This document shows, piece after piece, positions 39,878-51,291 of a stretch of DNA of 64,000 nt. Position 1 is the stretch's first letter. Every line of letters starts with the position of its first letter. Position numbers and translations under genes: made by a program. The stretch comes from Pseudomonadota bacterium (lineage in GTDB: Bacteria; Pseudomonadota; Alphaproteobacteria; UBA8366), in NCBI GenBank assembly GCA_036339585.1, contig JAYZAS010000010.1, positions 1-64,000 on the forward strand, written 5' to 3'. The notes under the pieces are model-generated. The model was not told where the DNA came from. It ran no database searches and worked only from the letters and a program-made list of their open reading frames with translations.

Positions 39878-39880
39878 GTG

Positions 39881-41299
39881 ATGGGTCGAAATAAAGATAC
39901 CGAACAGCTGCGACCGCCGTCTGTAGATAAAATACTCAAGACTCCGGAAATGGAGATGGCGTGCGAGGCTTATGGGCGCTATTTGGTAGCGGACGCCATT
40001 CGCGAAGAATTAGGATCACTCCGTTCTTCAATAGTATCGGGCATTGTGACTCCAGCAATGATGGATTCACAAAATATTTTTGTAGCGGTTAATAAACGCT
40101 TGTCCAGTTGGCTGCGCCCATCACTCCAGCGAGTTTTTAACCTTACGGGGACAGTTTTACACACTAATTTAGGCAGGGCATCTATACCGATTGAAGCGAT
40201 AGACGCAGTGACTATGGTCGCTACCGGGGCCTCGAATTTGGAATATGACCTAGGTAAGGGCTGCCGTGGTGACCGAGATGATCATATCGAACCTTTAATC
40301 TGTAAATTGACAGGAGCAGAGGCAGCTACGGTGGTTAATAATAATGCTGCGGCAGTATTACTATTGTTAAATACAATTGCTAACAAAAAGGAAGTGTTAG
40401 TATCGCGAGGTCAACTAGTTGAGATAGGTGGATCTTTCCGTATTCCTGACATCATGAAGCGCGCAGGCTGCAAGTTACGTGAGGTGGGGACAACTAATCG
40501 CACACATAAAGAGGATTATGCCGAGGTAATTGAAAAAAAGACCGCACTACTAATGTCAGTCCATACTAGTAATTACGTTGTGACTGGCTTTACTGCAGAG
40601 GTGTCACAATCTGATCTGGCGACGATCGCTCATAAACATAGTTTACCTTATGCGGTAGACCTTGGCAGTGGTATGCTGATTGACATGACGCAGTTTGGTT
40701 TACCTCATGAGCCAACACCCCAAGATGCAATCACAAATGGTGCCGACCTCGTTACATTTAGCAGCGACAAGTTGCTCGGAGGTCCTCAGGCCGGGATAAT
40801 CGCAGGGCGCGCCGCACTAATTAAAAAGATTAAAAAAAATCCATTAAAACGGGCACTGAGGCTTGATAAGATGACGATTGCTGCGTTGGAGGCTGTGCTA
40901 AGGCTCTATTTGAACCCAGATTGTCTAGTTGAACGCTTGCCTTCGTTGAGGGCGCTGGCCAAGCCTAAGATAAATATAATGAATGAGGCAACGGAGATAG
41001 CTGCCGCTGTTAGCGAAGCATTAAAAAAAAACGCGACCGTAGACGTTGTTGAAATGAAAAGTCAGGTAGGAAGTGGTTCGCAACCGACAAGCCTATTGCC
41101 AAGTGGTGGGCTTGCGATTGTGCCAGTTGGAGGGAAGAAAGGTCGTGGTTCGAAATTGAAAACACTCGCCGCTGCCTTTCGAAATTTACCGATACCAGTA
41201 ATAGGCCGTGTTACTGAGGATAAATTTTTGCTTGATTTTCGTTGCCTTGACAATCGCGTCGAGTTTGAGGCGCAGTTAGATCATCTTAAGTACTCCTAA
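39881..41299 (+). CDS. selA: L-seryl-tRNA(Sec) selenium transferase
   Basis: A 472-residue PLP enzyme that converts seryl-tRNA(Sec) to selenocysteyl-tRNA(Sec) using selenophosphate. It has the N-terminal domain typical of bacterial SelA, then LTGTVLHTNLGRASIP, NNNAAAVLLLLNTIA, and the PLP lysine in SSDKLLGGPQAGII. ATG at 39881 is favoured over GTG at 39878 because AGGAA lies six bases upstream of it. selB follows after three bases, and the tRNA lies just beyond, so the full decoding set except selD is here. Confidence 0.97.
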   Translation: MGRNKDTEQLRPPSVDKILKTPEMEMACEAYGRYLVADAIREELGSLRSSIVSGIVTPAMMDSQNIFVAVNKRLSSWLRPSLQRVFNLTGTVLHTNLGRASIPIEAIDAVTMVATGASNLEYDLGKGCRGDRDDHIEPLICKLTGAEAATVVNNNAAAVLLLLNTIANKKEVLVSRGQLVEIGGSFRIPDIMKRAGCKLREVGTTNRTHKEDYAEVIEKKTALLMSVHTSNYVVTGFTAEVSQSDLATIAHKHSLPYAVDLGSGMLIDMTQFGLPHEPTPQDAITNGADLVTFSSDKLLGGPQAGIIAGRAALIKKIKKNPLKRALRLDKMTIAALEAVLRLYLNPDCLVERLPSLRALAKPKINIMNEATEIAAAVSEALKKNATVDVVEMKSQVGSGSQPTSLLPSGGLAIVPVGGKKGRGSKLKTLAAAFRNLPIPVIGRVTEDKFLLDFRCLDNRVEFEAQLDHLKYS

Positions 41300-41302
41300 T
41301 CC

Positions 41303-43246
41303 ATGATAGTGGCAACGGCAGGACATATAGACCATGGGAAAACCGTGTTAGTGCATGCGCTAACCGGAGTGAATACGGATAGGCTACCGGAAGAAAAATC
41401 ACGCGGTCTTTCGATCGACTTGGGCTTTGCATATCGTTCGTTCGATCAGAATCATACTATTGGATTTGTTGATGTGCCGGGGCATGAGAAATTCATTAGA
41501 AATATGTTGGCTGGCGTGACTGGGATCGATTTCGCTCTATTGGTAATTGCTGCTGACGACGGTCCTATGCCTCAGACCAGAGAGCACTTGGCAATTATAA
41601 ATCTTCTTGGCGTCGAAAATGGTGCGATTGCATTAACTAAAATAGATCGGATCGATCAAGAACGGCGAGTTGAAGTACAAAAAGAAATTGCATCACTAGT
41701 TGCTGAAACAGTCATGGAGAACAAACCTATATTTCCATGCTCTAGCCAGACAGGTGAGGGTATTATTGAGCTGAGTGAACATCTCAAAGAAAAGGCCCTG
41801 GAAAATACTTCAAGAGCAAAAACAGGAAGATTTCGAATGGCAATCGATCGGGTCTTCACGCTCGCCGGCGCAGGATTAGTAGTTACTGGAACTGTTTTCT
41901 CAGGAAAGACTGTATTAGGCGACCGGCTTTTAGTTTCGCCGCAAGGCCTAAATGTGCGGATCCGTTCAATCCATGCCCAAAATTCTGAGAGTGAACTTGG
42001 GTATGCAGGTCAGCGATGTGCCCTAAATCTTACAGGAAGTGGTATTGATAGGGCGACAGTCTCGCGTGGAGATTGGGTACTAGATGGCGAACTGCATCGG
42101 CCAACAACACGTATTGATGCCGCCATTACTGTTCTCAAGTCAGAAAGAAGGTCTCTCATGCACTGGACGTCAGTTCATATTCACATCGGAGCTAAAGATG
42201 TTACTGGCCGGGTGGCAGTGTTAGAGCAGCAGACCATAGCTCCCGGGAAACATGGCTTGGTTCAGCTTATAACAGATGAGGAATTAGGGTGTCTGCACGG
42301 TGATCGATTAGTTATTCGTGATCAGTCAGCACGTCGCACTATCGCAGGAGGTATGGTGCTTGATCCATTTGCTTCTGAAAGAGGAAGACGAAAACCAGAC
42401 CGTTTCAAGACTTTAAGAGCATTGGAATGTTCCGATCCGGGAAAAGCGCTAGGTAGCTTACTAGAGTGCCAACGAAACGGCGTTAACTTGAGCCGCTTTA
42501 AGATTCTTTGGAATATATGCGACAAAGAAGCTGAGATATTATGGCAGAACTCAAACATGATCTGTATCAAGTCTGCTGACAAGGCAACTGGTATCTCTCT
42601 AAATTACTGGGCTCTTTTAAAATCGAAATGTATTCATAGTCTTGAGGCATGGCATCAACGTTGGCCAGACAGGCCAGGCCCTGAGAAAGAGCGATTACGG
42701 CGTTCGATGGTATCACCAGTTGATGAGCCAATTTTTTCAGCAGTAATAAGTGAGCTCATCCGGACTGGTTCAATTATTGCGAATGGTGCGTTTTTGTGTT
42801 TGCCGGGATATAGGCCCAAATTTGAAGGAAAGACAGCTTCTCTTTGGGAGCAAGTAGCAAAGTTACTAGTTAATGATAGCTTGCGTCCACCTCGTACCCG
42901 CGAGATAGCGGCTGAAGTTAATATAGATCTCAAGAAAGTTGAAGAGCTACTAACCCGCGCAACTTCTATGGGGCTTGTCTATCGAATCTCGGATAACCGG
43001 TATTTCCTCTCTGAGACTGTGCAAACATTAGCAGCAATAGCAGAGCGAATAGCTAGTGAGGCCGATGATGGTATGTTTACTGCTAAGTTGTACCGAGACA
43101 ACACTACTATAGGCCGCAATTTGGCAATTGAAGTGTTAGAGTTCTTCGATAGAAAAAAATTTACCAAGCGGATTAACGATAAGAGAATAATAGAATGTTC
43201 ACACCAAGAAATTTTTGGTTCTACACTCGATAAATCGAATGTGTAG
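41303..43246 (+). CDS. selB: selenocysteine-specific elongation factor
   Basis: A 647-residue GTPase that brings Sec-tRNA(Sec) to UGA codons next to a SECIS hairpin. The G domain starts at once: GHIDHGKT, DVPGHEKFIRNML and LTKIDRID. Domains II and III follow to about residue 370, then the C-terminal winged-helix repeats that bind the mRNA hairpin, somewhat longer than E. coli SelB (614). The start lies three bases after the selA stop, so the genes are co-translated. Confidence 0.97.
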   Translation: MIVATAGHIDHGKTVLVHALTGVNTDRLPEEKSRGLSIDLGFAYRSFDQNHTIGFVDVPGHEKFIRNMLAGVTGIDFALLVIAADDGPMPQTREHLAIINLLGVENGAIALTKIDRIDQERRVEVQKEIASLVAETVMENKPIFPCSSQTGEGIIELSEHLKEKALENTSRAKTGRFRMAIDRVFTLAGAGLVVTGTVFSGKTVLGDRLLVSPQGLNVRIRSIHAQNSESELGYAGQRCALNLTGSGIDRATVSRGDWVLDGELHRPTTRIDAAITVLKSERRSLMHWTSVHIHIGAKDVTGRVAVLEQQTIAPGKHGLVQLITDEELGCLHGDRLVIRDQSARRTIAGGMVLDPFASERGRRKPDRFKTLRALECSDPGKALGSLLECQRNGVNLSRFKILWNICDKEAEILWQNSNMICIKSADKATGISLNYWALLKSKCIHSLEAWHQRWPDRPGPEKERLRRSMVSPVDEPIFSAVISELIRTGSIIANGAFLCLPGYRPKFEGKTASLWEQVAKLLVNDSLRPPRTREIAAEVNIDLKKVEELLTRATSMGLVYRISDNRYFLSETVQTLAAIAERIASEADDGMFTAKLYRDNTTIGRNLAIEVLEFFDRKKFTKRINDKRIIECSHQEIFGSTLDKSNV

Positions 43247-43427: not shown

Positions 43428-43524
43428 GGAGGCGTCACGTTGCCCGGTGGTGCGCCCGGTCTTCAAAACCGGAGAGGGGTGTTTTGATGCTCCTGGTGGG
43501 TTCGACTCCCACACGCTTCCGCCA
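43428..43524 (+). tRNA. selC: tRNA-Sec (anticodon TCA)
   Basis: A 97-base tRNA with an eight-pair acceptor stem (GGAGGCGT with ACGCTTCC, one G-U), an anticodon arm CCGGT-CTTCAAA-ACCGG carrying TCA, a long variable arm (GAGGGGTGTTTTGATGCTCC) and the T loop TTCGACT, ending GCCA. Eight acceptor pairs, long extra arm and UCA anticodon are diagnostic of bacterial selenocysteine tRNA. Confidence 0.96.
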
Positions 43525-43565: not shown

Positions 43566-44117
43566 ATGGCACGGATTGAGTATCCAGACCTTTCACAACT
43601 TTCAGAGGACGTTCAGAAACTGGCGGCGCGTATAAACCCAATGCTGAACGTTTTTCGAATGCTTGCTCATGCTGAGTCTGCATACTATGGCTTCATGAAG
43701 TTCGGAAATGCTCTTCTAATGAGGTCTGAACTTGATCCGATTTTGAGGGAAATTATCATACTCCGGGTTGGTCATCTGTCGAAGTCATCCTACGAGATTT
43801 ATCAACACGAGAAAATTGCCCGCCATGTTGGTGTGTCATGGGACAAAATCAAGGCAGTGAGTTCGGGGGAGAATGAGGATATTTTCGATTATATCGAGAA
43901 TATCGTTATCCGGTTTACTGACGAAGTTGTACACTCGATTAAGGCAAAGGAAAATACCTTTGATACCATTTCCACATATCTTAACCCTCGTCAATTGAAT
44001 GAGGCAATTTTAATTATTGGATTTTACATGATGGTCTGTCGTTACCTTGAGAATCTTGAGATTGATATTGAAGAAGAGGGCGATGTGGACCCAACACTAA
44101 ATTTTGTGCCAGACTGA
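43566..44117 (+). CDS. carboxymuconolactone decarboxylase (AhpD-fold) family protein
   Basis: A 183-residue all-alpha protein of the CMD/AhpD family. The core REIIILRVGHLSKSSYEIYQ then HEKIARHVGVS matches the fold, including the histidine of the YxxxQH motif. The redox CxxC of AhpD is replaced by SKSS, so peroxidase-reductase activity is unlikely; the protein has only one cysteine, near the C-terminus (MMVCRYL). Functions in such members range from decarboxylation to unknown. It lies 41 bases after tRNA-Sec with AGGA before the ATG, and precedes an unrecognised gene and a selenoprotein gene on the same strand, so it may act with them. Confidence 0.85.
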   Translation: MARIEYPDLSQLSEDVQKLAARINPMLNVFRMLAHAESAYYGFMKFGNALLMRSELDPILREIIILRVGHLSKSSYEIYQHEKIARHVGVSWDKIKAVSSGENEDIFDYIENIVIRFTDEVVHSIKAKENTFDTISTYLNPRQLNEAILIIGFYMMVCRYLENLEIDIEEEGDVDPTLNFVPD

Positions 44118-44176
44118 CTTATAAATTGATTTAGAAACACTGATTAAAAGATTTGTCACATTAGGTGGGGGAGGAT

Positions 44177-45295
44177 ATGGCTCCAATCGTCAAAAAGCAA
44201 ATAGCCTTACAGAGTACAGTGCCCTCCAATATTGATCTTGTGGAGTGGTATTACGAACAAGGGTTCTCTGATGGATTACCAGTGGTTCCTCCTACTCCGG
44301 GGAAAATTGATGCGATGTTAGAGGAGCTGGGCGGTGTAACAGGGAGTGCTGTGTGCAGAGTGCCACCTCGTTGGGGCACATTAACTACCGAGGTGCTTGC
44401 GATCAACTTGGTCATGGCTGGGTGCAAACCAGAATATGCGAGAGTAGTGCGTGCGGCATTAGTAGCTTTGACTGATAATGCCTTTAATCTGAATGGTGTG
44501 CAGGCAACAACTCATATGGCTTCTCCACTTTTAGTAGTGAATGGACCTGTGAGAGGTGAGATCGGGATGAACTCTGGTTATAATACATTTGGGTCAGGTA
44601 ATCGTGCCAATGCGACAATAGGCCGTGCTGTTCGTATGGTCTTGCTAAATGTAGGCGGAGCATGGCCTGGGGATCTTGATAAATCGACATTGGGGTCTCC
44701 AGCAAAATACGCATACTGTATCGCTGAAAATGAAGAAGAAAGTCCCTTTGTTCCTTATCACGTGGACAAAGGGTATGATGCTTCTGAGTCAACGGTCTTT
44801 GTTATGGCTGCAGAACCTCCCCACTCAGTCACCAACCATGTTGCTGATGACCCTGAGGGGGTGCTAGAGTCTGTGTCCTCTGCGATGAGCACTTTTGCCA
44901 ATAATAATGCAGTATCAGGTGGTCACTGCGCCATTGTCTTGGGGCCAGAACACGCAAAAACCATAAGTAGTAAAGGATGGAGCCGTAGCGACATAAGGAA
45001 CTTTCTTTGGATGCACTCCGGGAACAGATTCGGTGATATAGCTTTTAATCATCGTTATGGTAAAATTTACAATCGTAACCTTCCTAAATGGTATAAACGC
45101 GGTATTGAAGACCGAATCCCTATTGTGTCTTCACCCGATCATATCCATCTCTTCGTTGCCGGTGGAGAGGCAGGGCGGTTCTCTGCCTTTATTCCCGGGT
45201 GGGGCCATATGACCAATCCAGTATTACGCTCTGTTTCGGGATTGCCGGCTACAACAACAGCTACACTGTGTAATGATGAAGCTTGTCAGTATTAA
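44177..45295 (+). CDS. conserved-looking protein of unknown function next to the UGSC selenoprotein gene
   Basis: A 372-residue protein whose family I cannot name with confidence. It is soluble, with no signal peptide or membrane helix. Possible functional residues are WYYEQGFSDGLPVVPPTPGK at the start, CRVPPRWGTLTTEVLAINL, a Gly/Asn-rich stretch (VNGPVRGEIGMNSGYNTFG), GHCAIVLGPEHAKTI, and a C-terminal CNDEACQY with two cysteines. ATG at 44177 is chosen, with AGGTGG eight bases before it; GTG at 44165 is in frame. It is followed by the selenoprotein gene after 18 bases, so the two are almost certainly one operon. Its high share of Gly and motif-like blocks suggests an enzyme rather than a binding protein. 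Function is unknown; it may be the partner or substrate-processing subunit of the selenoprotein. Confidence 0.8.
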   Translation: MAPIVKKQIALQSTVPSNIDLVEWYYEQGFSDGLPVVPPTPGKIDAMLEELGGVTGSAVCRVPPRWGTLTTEVLAINLVMAGCKPEYARVVRAALVALTDNAFNLNGVQATTHMASPLLVVNGPVRGEIGMNSGYNTFGSGNRANATIGRAVRMVLLNVGGAWPGDLDKSTLGSPAKYAYCIAENEEESPFVPYHVDKGYDASESTVFVMAAEPPHSVTNHVADDPEGVLESVSSAMSTFANNNAVSGGHCAIVLGPEHAKTISSKGWSRSDIRNFLWMHSGNRFGDIAFNHRYGKIYNRNLPKWYKRGIEDRIPIVSSPDHIHLFVAGGEAGRFSAFIPGWGHMTNPVLRSVSGLPATTTATLCNDEACQY

Positions 45296-45313: not shown

Positions 45314-45862
45314 ATGATTTCAGGAGAAACCGCTCAACAGCAGGCTGTCTATGATCCACGCGGCAGCGCCGAGGTCGATTTGGTCCCACTGTCTATACGA
45401 CCAAAATCACTTCTGCATTTGAGACTTGCAGTACTTGATAATACGAAATGGAATGCAGGAAAACTTCTGCGCAAAACCATGTCAAAGCTCGACGAAGAAT
45501 TTAGTTTCGAGAGTATAAATTATTACAAAAAGGAGAGTTTTTCGAAGGTTGCTTCTGCTCCGTTACTAGCGGAGATTGCCGAACATAATGATATAGCAAT
45601 TACTGCTATTGGGGATTGAGGCTCATGCACATCGTGCTGTATGCATGATGGCTTTGCGCTTGAAAAGTATCAAATTCCTACGGCAGTAATCTGTACGACC
45701 ACATTTCTGCATGAAGCGCATCAACAGCGTACCGCATTAGGTATGAGGGATCTCGAACCAGTGGCTATAACACATCCTCTCAGCACTATCTCTGATGAGG
45801 AAATAGAAATGCGCGTGGATGAGGCTACTTTGCAAATCCGTAGGGTCTTAATGGGAAAATAA
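45314..45862 (+). CDS. UGSC-motif selenoprotein (TGA 45617-45619 read as selenocysteine)
   Basis: A 182-residue protein if the in-frame TGA at 45617-45619 is decoded as selenocysteine (residue 102). Upstream and downstream frames are identical and make sense together: AITAIGD-U-GSCTSCCMHDGF. Known families contain a Sec-Gly-Ser-Cys (UGSC) motif, and U-x-x-C-x-x-C also occurs in glycine reductase selenoprotein B, whose following KYQIPTAVICT-type strand and late AITHPL resemble this protein; that similarity is from memory. selA, selB and tRNA-Sec lie just upstream. GGAGAGG precedes the ATG. A hairpin starts three bases after the TGA. Function is unknown; a redox enzyme acting on a thiol or C-heteroatom bond is likely. 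Ordinary gene callers would split it into two pieces. Confidence 0.9.
45620..45652 (+). promoter_or_regulatory. candidate bacterial SECIS hairpin
   Basis: Directly after the Sec TGA, TCATGCA (45623-45629) pairs with TGCATGA (45642-45648), enclosing a 12-base loop CATCGTGCTGTA; GC pairs may extend the base across a small bulge. Bacterial SECIS elements occupy this position and are bound by SelB. An alternative inner stem GCAC-ATC-GTGC is possible. Not tested by folding. Confidence 0.6.
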
Positions 45863-45890: not shown

Positions 45891-46559
45891 TCAACAGTCT
45901 ACATTGTTTTTAGCACTTTGCTGAAGGGAGCCTGCTCTATAATGGCGGTTAGTTTTTTGTGCGTGTTGTTTGCCAATTAGAAGCCCGCGTGCTTGCGCTC
46001 CACCTTTTGCTGGCACACCAACTGCGTCCATATTGTTTTTTTTGAAGGCAAGTCCCGCAATACCCCAAGTTGTGGTCCGACCCGGAGTTGAATATCTTAC
46101 TTTCCCGGGATTGGCCTTGACATGATCGACTAATCATTTAGCGGTTCTAAATCTACTACCATGGTGAACGAATAAGGCAGGTAAGAGGCGGCCGACCATG
46201 CATACAATTTTGAAATCCTTGAATGGATCAACTGGTGCCTTGCGAAACTGCGTGGAAAAATAAAATGAACCGCCAGAAGCAAGACAAAGGGTATGGCCGC
46301 CCGGTGTAGAATCAGCAACATATTTTGTTGCAGGGATGGTTGATCCACCGGGGTTATTGACCATAATGATTGGCTGGTTATTGATAAAGATAGGAGCAAC
46401 AGAAGTGAGAGCACGAGCATACGAGTCTGTTCCACCGCCTGCACCAAACCCGACAACAAGAGTTATAGGTTTATAGGGGAATACTGAGAAAGCTGGCACA
46501 GCGACAGAAGCTAAAGCAAAAGTGCTAGCTGCGAAAAATATTTTGAAATTCGAAATCAA
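45891..46559 (-). pseudogene. broken TctC-family substrate-binding protein gene
   Basis: The first 141 codons encode a signal peptide (FFAASTFALASVAVPAFS) and the N-terminal lobe of a tripartite tricarboxylate transporter binding protein (PYKPITLVVGFGAGGGTDSY, then NNPGGS). A TGA at 46134-46136 interrupts the frame. The same frame continues after it with clear TctC sequence (LVDHVKANPGKVRYSTPG, then GVPAKGGAQARGLL), so a single codon separates two homologous parts. Homology ends about 60 codons on, and the frame stops at 45891, giving about 220 codons instead of the usual 320. Truncation plus the stop indicates a pseudogene. No TctA or TctB gene is adjacent. TctC proteins bind carboxylates in the periplasm. 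Confidence 0.8.
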
Positions 46560-47754: not shown

Positions 47755-48669
47755 ATGTGTAGCTGGGAAGAGGCACGGGCATTAGAGGAAGAATTATTGA
47801 GCGGCTGCGAGGTTCGGAAAACGGCTTGCGGAGATGGACACATGGTTTGGCGCATTTGGGGTAGTGGGCCTCCCCTAGTAATGCTTCACGGAGGGGCTGG
47901 TTCGTGGCGGCATTGGGCACTGAACATTCGCAGTTTGGCGAGGCACTTTACGCTCTTTATTGCAGACTTGCCTGGTTTAGGAGACTCCGCTGAGCCGCCA
48001 ATACCTTTCGATAATAATAATTTTCGTTTCTCTGTAGGGCATTTAGCTAATATAATTTGTGACGGCATTAATGCATTGATCGGAGAAAAGGCGCATTTCA
48101 AAATTTTGGCTTTTTCCTTTGGCGCTATAAATAGCGGATATGTAGCATTGCGTATGGGATCACGCGTTCAGCACCTGACCCTTGTTGGTGCAGGGGCGAT
48201 GGGGTGCCCTTGGAGTGGTTTGCCTGCTGAGCCGAAATCACTGAGGGGCACAAAGACAGAGAAAGAGCGGCGTGAAGTGCACCGTCATAATCTAGGTATA
48301 TTAATGATTGGAAATCCAAATAATATCGATGACAGAGCAGTTTACCTTCAGTCAGAAAACATTTCCCGAGCAAGGCTACGCAGTTACCGCATAGCGGGAA
48401 CTGACACCCTTCGTTGGGCACTTGAGCAGGTCAACATTCCCATAAGTGGTATTTGGGGGCGGGGCGATGTCTACGCTATGCCAGATCTGGAAGAGCGGAT
48501 CGATGTTATAAAAGGGATCTTTAGCAGTGCTGACTGCAGGATCATTGAGGGGGCTGGCCATTGGGTTATGTATGAGGCGTCTGATACTTTTAATCAGATA
48601 GGGTTAGAACAATTAGGCGCAATTGCTCATAAAGGCGAGGATGAGGTTGGGCAAGCAAATGCACGCTGA
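47755..48669 (+). CDS. alpha/beta hydrolase, tandem copy 1
   Basis: A 304-residue alpha/beta hydrolase. The oxyanion-hole loop is LHGGAGSWRHW (about residues 43-53); the nucleophile elbow is AFSFGA, with alanine in place of the first glycine of GxSxG; the acid is the aspartate in WGRGDVY and the base histidine is in GAGHWVMYEA. It is cytosolic, like meta-cleavage product hydrolases and related C-C or ester hydrolases, with a helical cap at about residues 150-220. The first of four tandem paralogues, it is the least similar in its N-terminal region and overlaps copy 2 by 29 bases. Confidence 0.87.
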   Translation: MCSWEEARALEEELLSGCEVRKTACGDGHMVWRIWGSGPPLVMLHGGAGSWRHWALNIRSLARHFTLFIADLPGLGDSAEPPIPFDNNNFRFSVGHLANIICDGINALIGEKAHFKILAFSFGAINSGYVALRMGSRVQHLTLVGAGAMGCPWSGLPAEPKSLRGTKTEKERREVHRHNLGILMIGNPNNIDDRAVYLQSENISRARLRSYRIAGTDTLRWALEQVNIPISGIWGRGDVYAMPDLEERIDVIKGIFSSADCRIIEGAGHWVMYEASDTFNQIGLEQLGAIAHKGEDEVGQANAR

Positions 48670-49492
48670 CGAATATATCGCGAAAATAGAATCATTGTCG
48701 GATGTAAAGACTTCGCGTTGCGGTGGAGGGGAAATGGTCTGGCATGTTTGGGGTGAAGGCGAGCCTTTGATATTATTTCATGGCGGGTTCGGAAGCTGGA
48801 CCCATTGGATCAAAAATATCGAATTCTTTGCTCGTCATTTTCAGGTATTCTGTCCTGATATTCCATGTCATGGGGATTCCTCCATGGCCCCTCAGCCGCA
48901 CGACGCACCGAACATAAGCAAGATCATCTCTGATGGCATAGATCAGGTACTGCCAAATTTTACAAAATTGCGAATGTGCGGGTTTTCATTTGGGGGAATT
49001 ATGGCCGGCAATACAGCAGTATGGCAGGGCGAACGCGTACACAAATTGCTAATAGTGGGGTCGAATGGTCTTGACTGCAGAAAAGGACCCATTTCCGGTT
49101 TACAGGATTGGCGTAAATCAAATACTTCAAAAGAACGACTTGTTTGCCATCAACGTAATCTCGAGATCATTATGTTCGGAAATCCACAAAATGTCGACGA
49201 TCTGGCAATCTGTATCCAAGATAGGAATACTCGGCGATCCCGAATGAAGTCTCGTCATATTGCGAGCACACCGGCGCTGCTCAATGCGTTGCCGAAGTTG
49301 AAGGGCAGTTTATATGGCATCTGGGGCGAAAAGGATGTCTACGCTCGGGATTACATGTATGAACGTCGTAACGTGTTTGAACGGATACAACCTTGTTGTG
49401 AATTTGAAGTCATTCCTGAGGCTGGTCATTGGGTGCCTTATGAAGCAGCTGCACAATTTAATTTGTTAGCATTGGAAATGTTAAGGGATTGA
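48641..49492 (+). CDS. alpha/beta hydrolase, tandem copy 2
   Basis: A 283-residue alpha/beta hydrolase. Motifs: FHGGFGSWTHWIKN for the oxyanion hole, CGFSFGG as nucleophile elbow, WGEKDVY for the acid and EAGHWVPYEA for the base. ATG at 48641 has AAAGG five bases upstream; ATG at 48659 is an alternative giving a length nearer to copy 1. A TTG at 48623 is open but unsupported. Two cysteines in the N-terminal region (CGGGEMVW) align with the CGDGHMVW of its siblings. It begins within the end of copy 1. Confidence 0.87.
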   Translation: MRLGKQMHADEYIAKIESLSDVKTSRCGGGEMVWHVWGEGEPLILFHGGFGSWTHWIKNIEFFARHFQVFCPDIPCHGDSSMAPQPHDAPNISKIISDGIDQVLPNFTKLRMCGFSFGGIMAGNTAVWQGERVHKLLIVGSNGLDCRKGPISGLQDWRKSNTSKERLVCHQRNLEIIMFGNPQNVDDLAICIQDRNTRRSRMKSRHIASTPALLNALPKLKGSLYGIWGEKDVYARDYMYERRNVFERIQPCCEFEVIPEAGHWVPYEAAAQFNLLALEMLRD

Positions 49493-49498
49493 GCTTGC

Positions 49499-50395
49499 AT
49501 GCTACTGGAAAAACAACGAGAGGCTCTTAAAGGAGGTGTTCCGCGGCATGGGGAAACACCGGCAGATTGTGTTGCTCGGTTTGATAGTTCAGCAAAGATC
49601 TTAAATACCCCTTGCGGTGATGGAAGTATGGTGTGGAGAAAATGGGGTGATGGTGATCCAGTGCTTTTTTTTCATGGCAATCACGGCTCCTGGACCCACT
49701 GGATCCGGAATATCAGTGTTGTAGCTGAGAGATACGCCGTTTTTTGCGCAGATTCTCCGGGGCTTGGAGACTCCTCCCTGCCTCCATCTCCTTACAGCTT
49801 GGAGTGTATCATAGATGCATTCGAAATTGGGATTAAGGATTTAATTTCCGAAAAAGTACCGATTCATTTTATAGGGTTTTCCTATGGAAGCGCTATTGCT
49901 GCTAATACAGCGCTTCGCCTCAAAGAGCGTGTGAAATCATTGACGATGTGCGCATCTGCACGATTGACAGCAACTTCAGAAATTCCGCGCGTCATGAAAA
50001 GCTGGCGCCGCGCATCAACAGATGAAGATAGGTGGGAGGCACACAGACACAATCTCGCTGAGATGATGATCGCAAAGCCGGAGTGTATCGACGATCTAGC
50101 TGTTTACCTGCAAAGTCAAAATGCGCCACGTGCACGCATACGTACGAAGGAATTTATTCCCCGCGATAGCTTGATAAACGCTCTTATTGGGTTGAGAGGT
50201 GTACCTATGCTAAATATCTGGGGAACCGAAGACGGTTTCTTTAGGGCATTTCTTGAAAGCAAAACAGAACTTATTGACGGAAACAATATCGAGCTTGATG
50301 TAAAGACCATAGCCAATGTGTCCCACTGGTCACCCTATGAGGCATACACAACTGTCAACGAATGGTTAATGGAGTGGTTTCAGGCACATGATTAG
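49499..50395 (+). CDS. alpha/beta hydrolase, tandem copy 3
   Basis: A 298-residue alpha/beta hydrolase with the same plan: FFHGNHGSWTHWIRN, nucleophile elbow IGFSYGSAI, WGTEDGFF and VSHWSPYEA. The glycine-rich loop uses HGNHG rather than HGGxG. The N-terminal GVPRHGETPADCVARF is shared with copy 4 (GGFPRIDETPEECVARF), so these two are the closest pair. It starts six bases after copy 2 with only a weak AAGGG ribosome site, consistent with coupling. Confidence 0.87.
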   Translation: MLLEKQREALKGGVPRHGETPADCVARFDSSAKILNTPCGDGSMVWRKWGDGDPVLFFHGNHGSWTHWIRNISVVAERYAVFCADSPGLGDSSLPPSPYSLECIIDAFEIGIKDLISEKVPIHFIGFSYGSAIAANTALRLKERVKSLTMCASARLTATSEIPRVMKSWRRASTDEDRWEAHRHNLAEMMIAKPECIDDLAVYLQSQNAPRARIRTKEFIPRDSLINALIGLRGVPMLNIWGTEDGFFRAFLESKTELIDGNNIELDVKTIANVSHWSPYEAYTTVNEWLMEWFQAHD

Positions 50396-50409
50396 ATTTA
50401 GTAATACCA

Positions 50410-51291
50410 ATGGAAAATGATGGTCTGGTTGGCGGCTTTCCGCGCATCGATGAAACACCAGAGGAGTGTGTGGCTCGTTTTGAGAATGCAGCCGAGATTG
50501 CTTATACACCATGTGGTGATGGCCATGTGATATGGCATATTTGGGGAGATGGTGATCCTTTACTGCTATTGCATGGCAATCATGGAAGCTGGACTCACTG
50601 GATCAAAAATATACCATTTCTTTCCGAACAATATCGTGTCCTTGTTCCAGATGCTCCAGGGTTGGGGGATTCCTCGGTACCTCCGGAACCTCATTCCATG
50701 GATGGGATAGCTTCTATTATGAACTCGGGTCTGGACAACTTAATAGGGTCCAAAACTCGATGTCATATGGCGGGTTTCTCCTATGGCAGTACACTGGGTG
50801 GTTACATGGCAATGGGCTTAGGGGCACGTCTCAAGACATTCGCTATGATAGGAGCGGCTCGGTTGACTGGCCAACGCACTATGGTAGAGGGCTTGATCAA
50901 CTGGAAACGCTTGAAAGATCCAGAAGAGATCGTTGAGGCGCATCGACACAACCTAGGTCAAGTTATGTTTAGCGGACCGAGAGCAGTTGACGATCTTGCT
51001 CTTTATACCCAGGTCAAAAATGCGCCGCGAGCCAGAGTGAAGGCCCACCATTTCGCTCGTCGTCTAACCCTGCCAGATGCATTGGTTGGATCGGCGGCAC
51101 AAATTTGTACTTATTGGGGCACAGCAGATCAGTATTACCCCCATTATATTCAATCATACGACGAGCAGATTTCTGCGCGAGGTCTTAAAATAAAAACTGA
51201 AATCATAGAGGGTGCTGGTCATTGGACAATTTATGAGGCACCAAACGAAATGAACGAAAAATTGCTCACATTTATGAAATCGCATGATTGA
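50410..51291 (+). CDS. alpha/beta hydrolase, tandem copy 4
   Basis: A 293-residue alpha/beta hydrolase. It has LLHGNHGSWTHWIKN, AGFSYGSTLGG, WGTADQYY and GAGHWTIYEA, so the triad Ser-Asp-His is complete. It is the nearest relative of copy 3, sharing the N-terminal ETPEECVARFENA pattern, and probably arose by a recent duplication. The start has no clear Shine-Dalgarno sequence and lies 14 bases after copy 3. The double ABC exporter begins 28 bases later on the same strand. Confidence 0.87.
   Translation: MENDGLVGGFPRIDETPEECVARFENAAEIAYTPCGDGHVIWHIWGDGDPLLLLHGNHGSWTHWIKNIPFLSEQYRVLVPDAPGLGDSSVPPEPHSMDGIASIMNSGLDNLIGSKTRCHMAGFSYGSTLGGYMAMGLGARLKTFAMIGAARLTGQRTMVEGLINWKRLKDPEEIVEAHRHNLGQVMFSGPRAVDDLALYTQVKNAPRARVKAHHFARRLTLPDALVGSAAQICTYWGTADQYYPHYIQSYDEQISARGLKIKTEIIEGAGHWTIYEAPNEMNEKLLTFMKSHD

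Follow-up and report, generated by a model that had tools for sequence, protein, structure and literature searches.

A UGSC family selenoprotein and its recurrent partner in an alphaproteobacterial genome, a candidate thioredoxin-dependent selenoenzyme with distant kinship to glycine reductase component B

UGSC is a major family of selenocysteine (Sec)-containing proteins of aquatic bacteria, ranked among the commonest selenoproteins of the ocean and of fresh water in a 2008 ocean survey (PMC2398784), which also describes its fusion to a conserved domain named Unknown_1. What these proteins do is left open in the reviews found (PMC13188914). For selenoproteins of the GrdB type, including a fluoroacetate reductase, an attack of Sec on the substrate has been proposed (PMC10838667). 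Here, we describe a UGSC gene and its surroundings in a window of 64,000 nucleotides, the whole stretch of alphaproteobacterial DNA that was analyzed.

According to our analysis, positions 45314 to 45862 of the forward strand encode a UGSC family selenoprotein (P0001) in a single frame, which is closed by a TAA and interrupted only by the TGA at 45617 to 45619; with this codon counted as Sec (Sec102) the protein has 182 residues, and the peptide across it reads GD-U-GSCTSCC. The first-pass annotation had described two same-phase frames, 45314 to 45619 and 45641 to 45862, joined by one TGA and six sense codons; the common phase and the single TGA hold, but the TGA is followed by seven sense codons, not six, before the ATG at 45641. 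The joined protein scores 174.1 bits against the Pfam family PF24696 (UGSC; curated cut-off, 25) and 150 bits against the NCBIfam family NF041046 (UGSC_fam; curated cut-off, 125), and the joined frame is therefore far from a chance match. Together with the Cys homologues and the conserved codons after the TGA reported below, these scores uphold its initial reading as a UGSC selenoprotein. We thus deem it an additional member of an already named family, from which nothing sets this copy apart. In the family alignment U102, G103, C105, and F131 are invariant, and the U-x-x-C motif is invariant throughout the family proper. Ordinary gene calling halts at 45619, and the expectation that such genes are annotated as two fragments is matched by a public example from Paracoccus ferrooxidans (WGR63593.1 and WGR63594.1).

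Evidence on the decoding of the TGA comes from the homologues. Of the 70 unique homologous UGSC domains taken from loci, 69 contain a single in-frame TGA and one has Cys, and in every domain where the motif pattern matched the TGA is the first codon of U-G-S-C, as it is here. The source genome holds four UGSC domains with one TGA apiece; among 60 relatives, 24 carry UGSC, nearly all full-length copies having exactly one internal TGA. When we looked for Cys at the TGA column, as had been proposed, it was found in the relative G201, whose genome lacks selA, and in further lineages, namely, in plasmid copies from the haloarchaea Natrinema and Halalkalicoccus and from Arthrobacter, Roseovarius, and Variovorax; another relative (G821) has copies of both types in its genome, one with TGA and one with Cys. 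The Cys copies of Arthrobacter and Roseovarius bypass the need for Sec expression. The first-pass annotation had also named findings that would speak against Sec: homologues ending at the TGA, homologues lacking Cys or Sec there, and codons after it that are not conserved. Homologues extend past the TGA, and Sec or Cys occupies the column in the family proper, although remote fusion proteins from Vibrio and Sporomusa have Met. As for the codons, comparison with the sister species gave 18 synonymous and 5 nonsynonymous differences in the 80 codons after the TGA, against 21 and 10 in the 101 codons before it, indicating purifying selection after the TGA much as before it. Two loci deserve separate mention. 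A Cys-type UGSC gene with a TGA at another column (L089; G335:C6:12789-13246), in a genome without selA, is probably decayed, and the UGSC gene on a contig titled as a Bordetella parapertussis metagenome-assembled genome (L043) lies near environmental betaproteobacterial ones, so that the species label looks doubtful.

The genes for Sec incorporation lie just upstream on the forward strand, as initially noted. Profile matches identified selA, encoding the L-seryl-tRNA(Sec) selenium transferase (39878 to 41299), and selB, encoding the Sec-specific elongation factor (41303 to 43246); a tRNA-Sec (UCA) follows at 43428 to 43520, and selD, found elsewhere in the source genome, completes the set. 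With short gaps, the gene order is selA, selB, tRNA-Sec, a gene for a carboxymuconolactone decarboxylase family (AhpD superfamily) protein devoid of CxxC (43566 to 44117, forward strand, same operon), the partner gene described below, and UGSC. Across the relatives, selA is present in 22 of the 24 genomes bearing UGSC, the two exceptions being 64% and 77% complete, and just 2 of the 36 relatives that lack UGSC gave a full-strength selA match. These data bear on a reading in which TGA is a sense codon, such as Trp, throughout the genome and UGSC is nothing special; it would explain the in-frame TGA, but the homologues have Cys rather than Trp at that column, the window yielded no TGA-reading tRNA other than tRNA-Sec, and selA, selB, and selD are all present. 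We regard it as having a negligible probability.

The palindromic hairpin reported after the TGA is real. It is a SECIS-like stem-loop at 45630 to 45650 (forward strand), in which 45630 to 45637 pair with 45643 to 45650 in an 8-bp stem around the apical loop UGUAU (45638 to 45642), with a z of about -3.5 against dinucleotide shuffles. It lies close after the UGA and has a small apical loop containing G, as described for bacterial SECIS elements (PMC1088965); at the gathering threshold, Rfam placed no SECIS family on it. The hairpin is kept in 45 sequences, with the G and U of the loop invariant, and its stem shows 11 two-sided changes compared with 2.0 in shuffles. In six sequences a C-G pair is swapped for G-C, turning a Cys codon into Trp; the stem therefore persists while the residue changes. 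Since related sequences can inflate the shuffle control, this covariation supports rather than proves the hairpin. On this comparative evidence, SelB and tRNA-Sec would read the UGA as Sec, aided by the hairpin that follows it. Were the TGA instead a true stop, the gene would be truncated to 101 amino acids or decayed, which agrees with the end point of standard gene calling. Yet the frame is conserved with a purifying pattern past the TGA, the UGSC family match spans it, Cys homologues exist, the hairpin covaries, and the Sec machinery stands 2 kb upstream; a true stop is thus very improbable. Both an alternative code and a nonsense mutation were rejected. We conclude that there is a strong case, built on sequence comparison, for reading this TGA as Sec.

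The gene preceding UGSC (44165 to 45295, forward strand) encodes a 376-amino-acid protein with the motif GLPVVPPT (P0002), here called the partner, which is adjacent or fused to UGSC almost everywhere: of the 70 UGSC domains, 66 have such a protein of about 350 residues before or after them, either fused or encoded on the same strand at a distance of up to 300 bp. The source genome has four partner-UGSC pairs, of which two are tandem fusions. The partner matched no Pfam family even at an E value of 10 and no NCBIfam family, and searching the sequences of the PDB with profiles of UGSC and of the partner returned chance matches or none. Its invariant residues include D36, G37, P39, P43, R154, and E188. 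The model of the partner (pLDDT, 86) gave only weak, fumarase-like matches, which were set aside, their TM scores of 0.27 or less being judged meaningless; an alignment of fused UGSC-partner proteins was discarded on account of badly aligned domain ends.

Downstream of UGSC, a remnant of tctC, from a tripartite tricarboxylate transporter, lies on the reverse strand at 45966 to 46547; it covers residues 3 to 197 of 323 and is 86% identical to the sister species, in which intact tctA, tctB, and tctC follow UGSC (L038 and L050). Apart from this remnant, these genes are gone here. Further downstream of the UGSC operon, 47755 to 51291 encode four tandem paralogous alpha/beta hydrolases beside a DUF1932 dehydrogenase, an array that is conserved in the sister species over the portion covered by its contig.

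The partner-UGSC pair recurs with genes for thioredoxin reductase and thioredoxin or with a fused thioredoxin-like domain. An Arthrobacter plasmid carries trxB, trxA, partner, and UGSC in that order; Roseovarius has partner, UGSC, and then trxB; and the UGSC cluster of Variovorax contains trxB. Thioredoxin reductase-like genes were found in nine of the flanking loci, a minority, at distances from UGSC of up to about 6 kb; the 64,000-nucleotide window yielded none. In the source genome and many relatives, the partner is fused to an N-terminal domain that contains CPTC or CETC as well as a cis-proline segment, VPTLI; since the Pfam match is weak, its thioredoxin-like assignment rests mainly on this motif and the conservation thereof.

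One explanation gives the partner the leading role, as the real enzyme, for example an organic-acid lyase or hydratase, with UGSC structural or metal binding and its Sec not redox active. The plasmids of Vibrio europaeus (L127) and Sporomusa termitida (L128) encode fused UGSC-like and partner domains in which Met-Gly-Thr-Ser replaces UGSC, and these fusions adjoin genes for aconitase X and DUF126; with 18 to 21 bits against the UGSC profile built here, they are borderline family members at most. Since they carry Met at the Sec position, the partner may have a chemistry that works without Sec or Cys, and the invariant D36, R154, and E188 of the partner are in keeping with this explanation. Against this stand the U-x-x-C motif, invariant in the family proper, the associated thioredoxin domains and thioredoxin reductases, and the retention of costly Sec, which favors redox use or nucleophilic catalysis. 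We consider this explanation improbable.

The AlphaFold2 model of UGSC (pLDDT, 93) is built of five alternating beta-alpha units, and Sec opens the third helix. As modeled, the fold is Rossmann-like and not that of thioredoxin, contrary to the guess made in the 2008 survey (PMC2398784); a PDB fold search gave no close match (best TM score, 0.52) and no thioredoxin in the top 50. This has consequences for the idea that UGSC is a thioredoxin-type general thiol-disulfide or peroxide reductase whose partner is a client or regulator. A U-x-x-C motif as in many redox selenoproteins and the links to TrxB and TrxA are in its favor, but the modeled fold speaks against it, and a general redox protein does not usually come with a near-obligate partner. 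Moreover, UGSC paralogues, as many as ten in one genome, have varied catabolic neighbors (TauD, CaiB, SDR, TctC, UbiD, and FAA hydrolase, several of them labeled by eye), and this would suit substrate-specific enzymes better. A general reductase is, in our view, rather unlikely.

The hint at GrdB in the first-pass annotation was borne out as distant homology. In hhalign profile comparisons, UGSC scored 93.7% against GrdB and 91% against PrdB, with Sec aligned on Sec, and 95.3% (2e-8) against a combined GrdB and PrdB profile, whereas reversed and shuffled controls reached at most about 2 to 3%. Values of 91 to 95% are obtained with enough sequences, an earlier and shallower PrdB-like profile having given 47%. 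Masking the motif lowered the value to 53%, which means that the motif accounts for some of the signal, and the homology is limited to the Sec half, about 60 to 80 columns. At an E value of up to 10, a Pfam scan of the UGSC protein retrieved only UGSC and a chance match to Astacin, and not PF07355; a sequence search found no solved GrdB structure. Given the profile comparisons and their controls, UGSC is best regarded as distantly related to the Sec domain of GrdB and PrdB. For the partner, instead, profile comparison with GrdE and GrdB detected no relationship (0.1 to 0.3%), and the pyruvoyl proprotein PF09338 (GrdE/PrdA) is absent from the source genome; GrdB substrate chemistry therefore cannot be transferred directly. 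No match to PF09338/GrdE was found in 385 genomes drawn from the class. A relative from the same order (G029, contig C421; L093, L113, and L115) encodes a full GrdB (445 bits) and GrdE (483 bits), which is unusual for the group. The source genome itself carries two tandem PrdB-like selenoprotein genes (C4:339197-340826; L096 and L112) with the motif V-U-PNCTRAVG, each truncated at the TGA by ordinary gene calling, and similar genes are found in many relatives.

From these comparisons we propose, at roughly even chance, that UGSC is the Sec half of a two-subunit, thioredoxin-powered reductase, distant kin of glycine reductase. Judging from adjacency and fusion, the small Sec subunit and the large subunit encoded at 44165 to 45295 would form one enzyme. 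On the model of component B of glycine or betaine reductase, or of D-proline reductase, the large subunit would bind an organic substrate, which the selenolate at the start of the U-x-x-C helix would attack while the partner holds it. Cys105 would then resolve the selenenyl sulfide, and electrons passing from NADPH through thioredoxin reductase to thioredoxin would re-reduce the Sec center. Where a genome has several paralogues, these would act on different substrates within catabolic pathways. The catabolic neighbors suggest a role in the degradation of carbon compounds; since they vary and were collected without a background comparison, we claim no particular substrate. The fuller proposal is tentative and, in our estimate, somewhat short of an even chance: UGSC and its partner would be a previously unrecognized class of thioredoxin-dependent selenoenzyme, like component B but with a nonpyruvoyl substrate subunit, forming a substrate-specific catabolic module spread through marine bacteria, with a Cys form in haloarchaea and actinobacteria. 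The partner, the thioredoxin link, and the relationship to GrdB are absent from the literature passages found on UGSC, whose coverage is incomplete. Taken together, a near-obligatory partner, a thioredoxin link, and kinship with GrdB turn the label "function unknown" into a testable question.

Compared with known systems, this copy shares with the UGSC family (PF24696/NF041046) scores above the cut-offs, the UGSC motif, and Sec with Cys homologues, while the partner subunit, the thioredoxin links, and the fold go beyond the published descriptions found in the available passages. Unknown_1 (PMC2398784) is like the partner a conserved domain fused to UGSC and is probably the same domain as P0002. 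With GrdB and PrdB (PF07355), of the glycine, sarcosine, betaine, and D-proline reductases, UGSC shares U-x-x-C (UGTCTRC in GrdB and UGSCTSC in the present protein), a motif placed between a beta strand and the helix that follows, as well as profile similarity in the Sec half and a two-subunit organization. It differs from them in being shorter, in lacking PF07355, and in having a large subunit unrelated to the pyruvoyl GrdE/PrdA. The hosts differ as well, UGSC being found here in alphaproteobacteria and on haloarchaeal plasmids and GrdB/PrdB in anaerobic amino acid fermenters. A further likeness is that the glycine reductase system is reduced by thioredoxin and occurs in several substrate-specific copies (PMC10838667 and PMC13188914).
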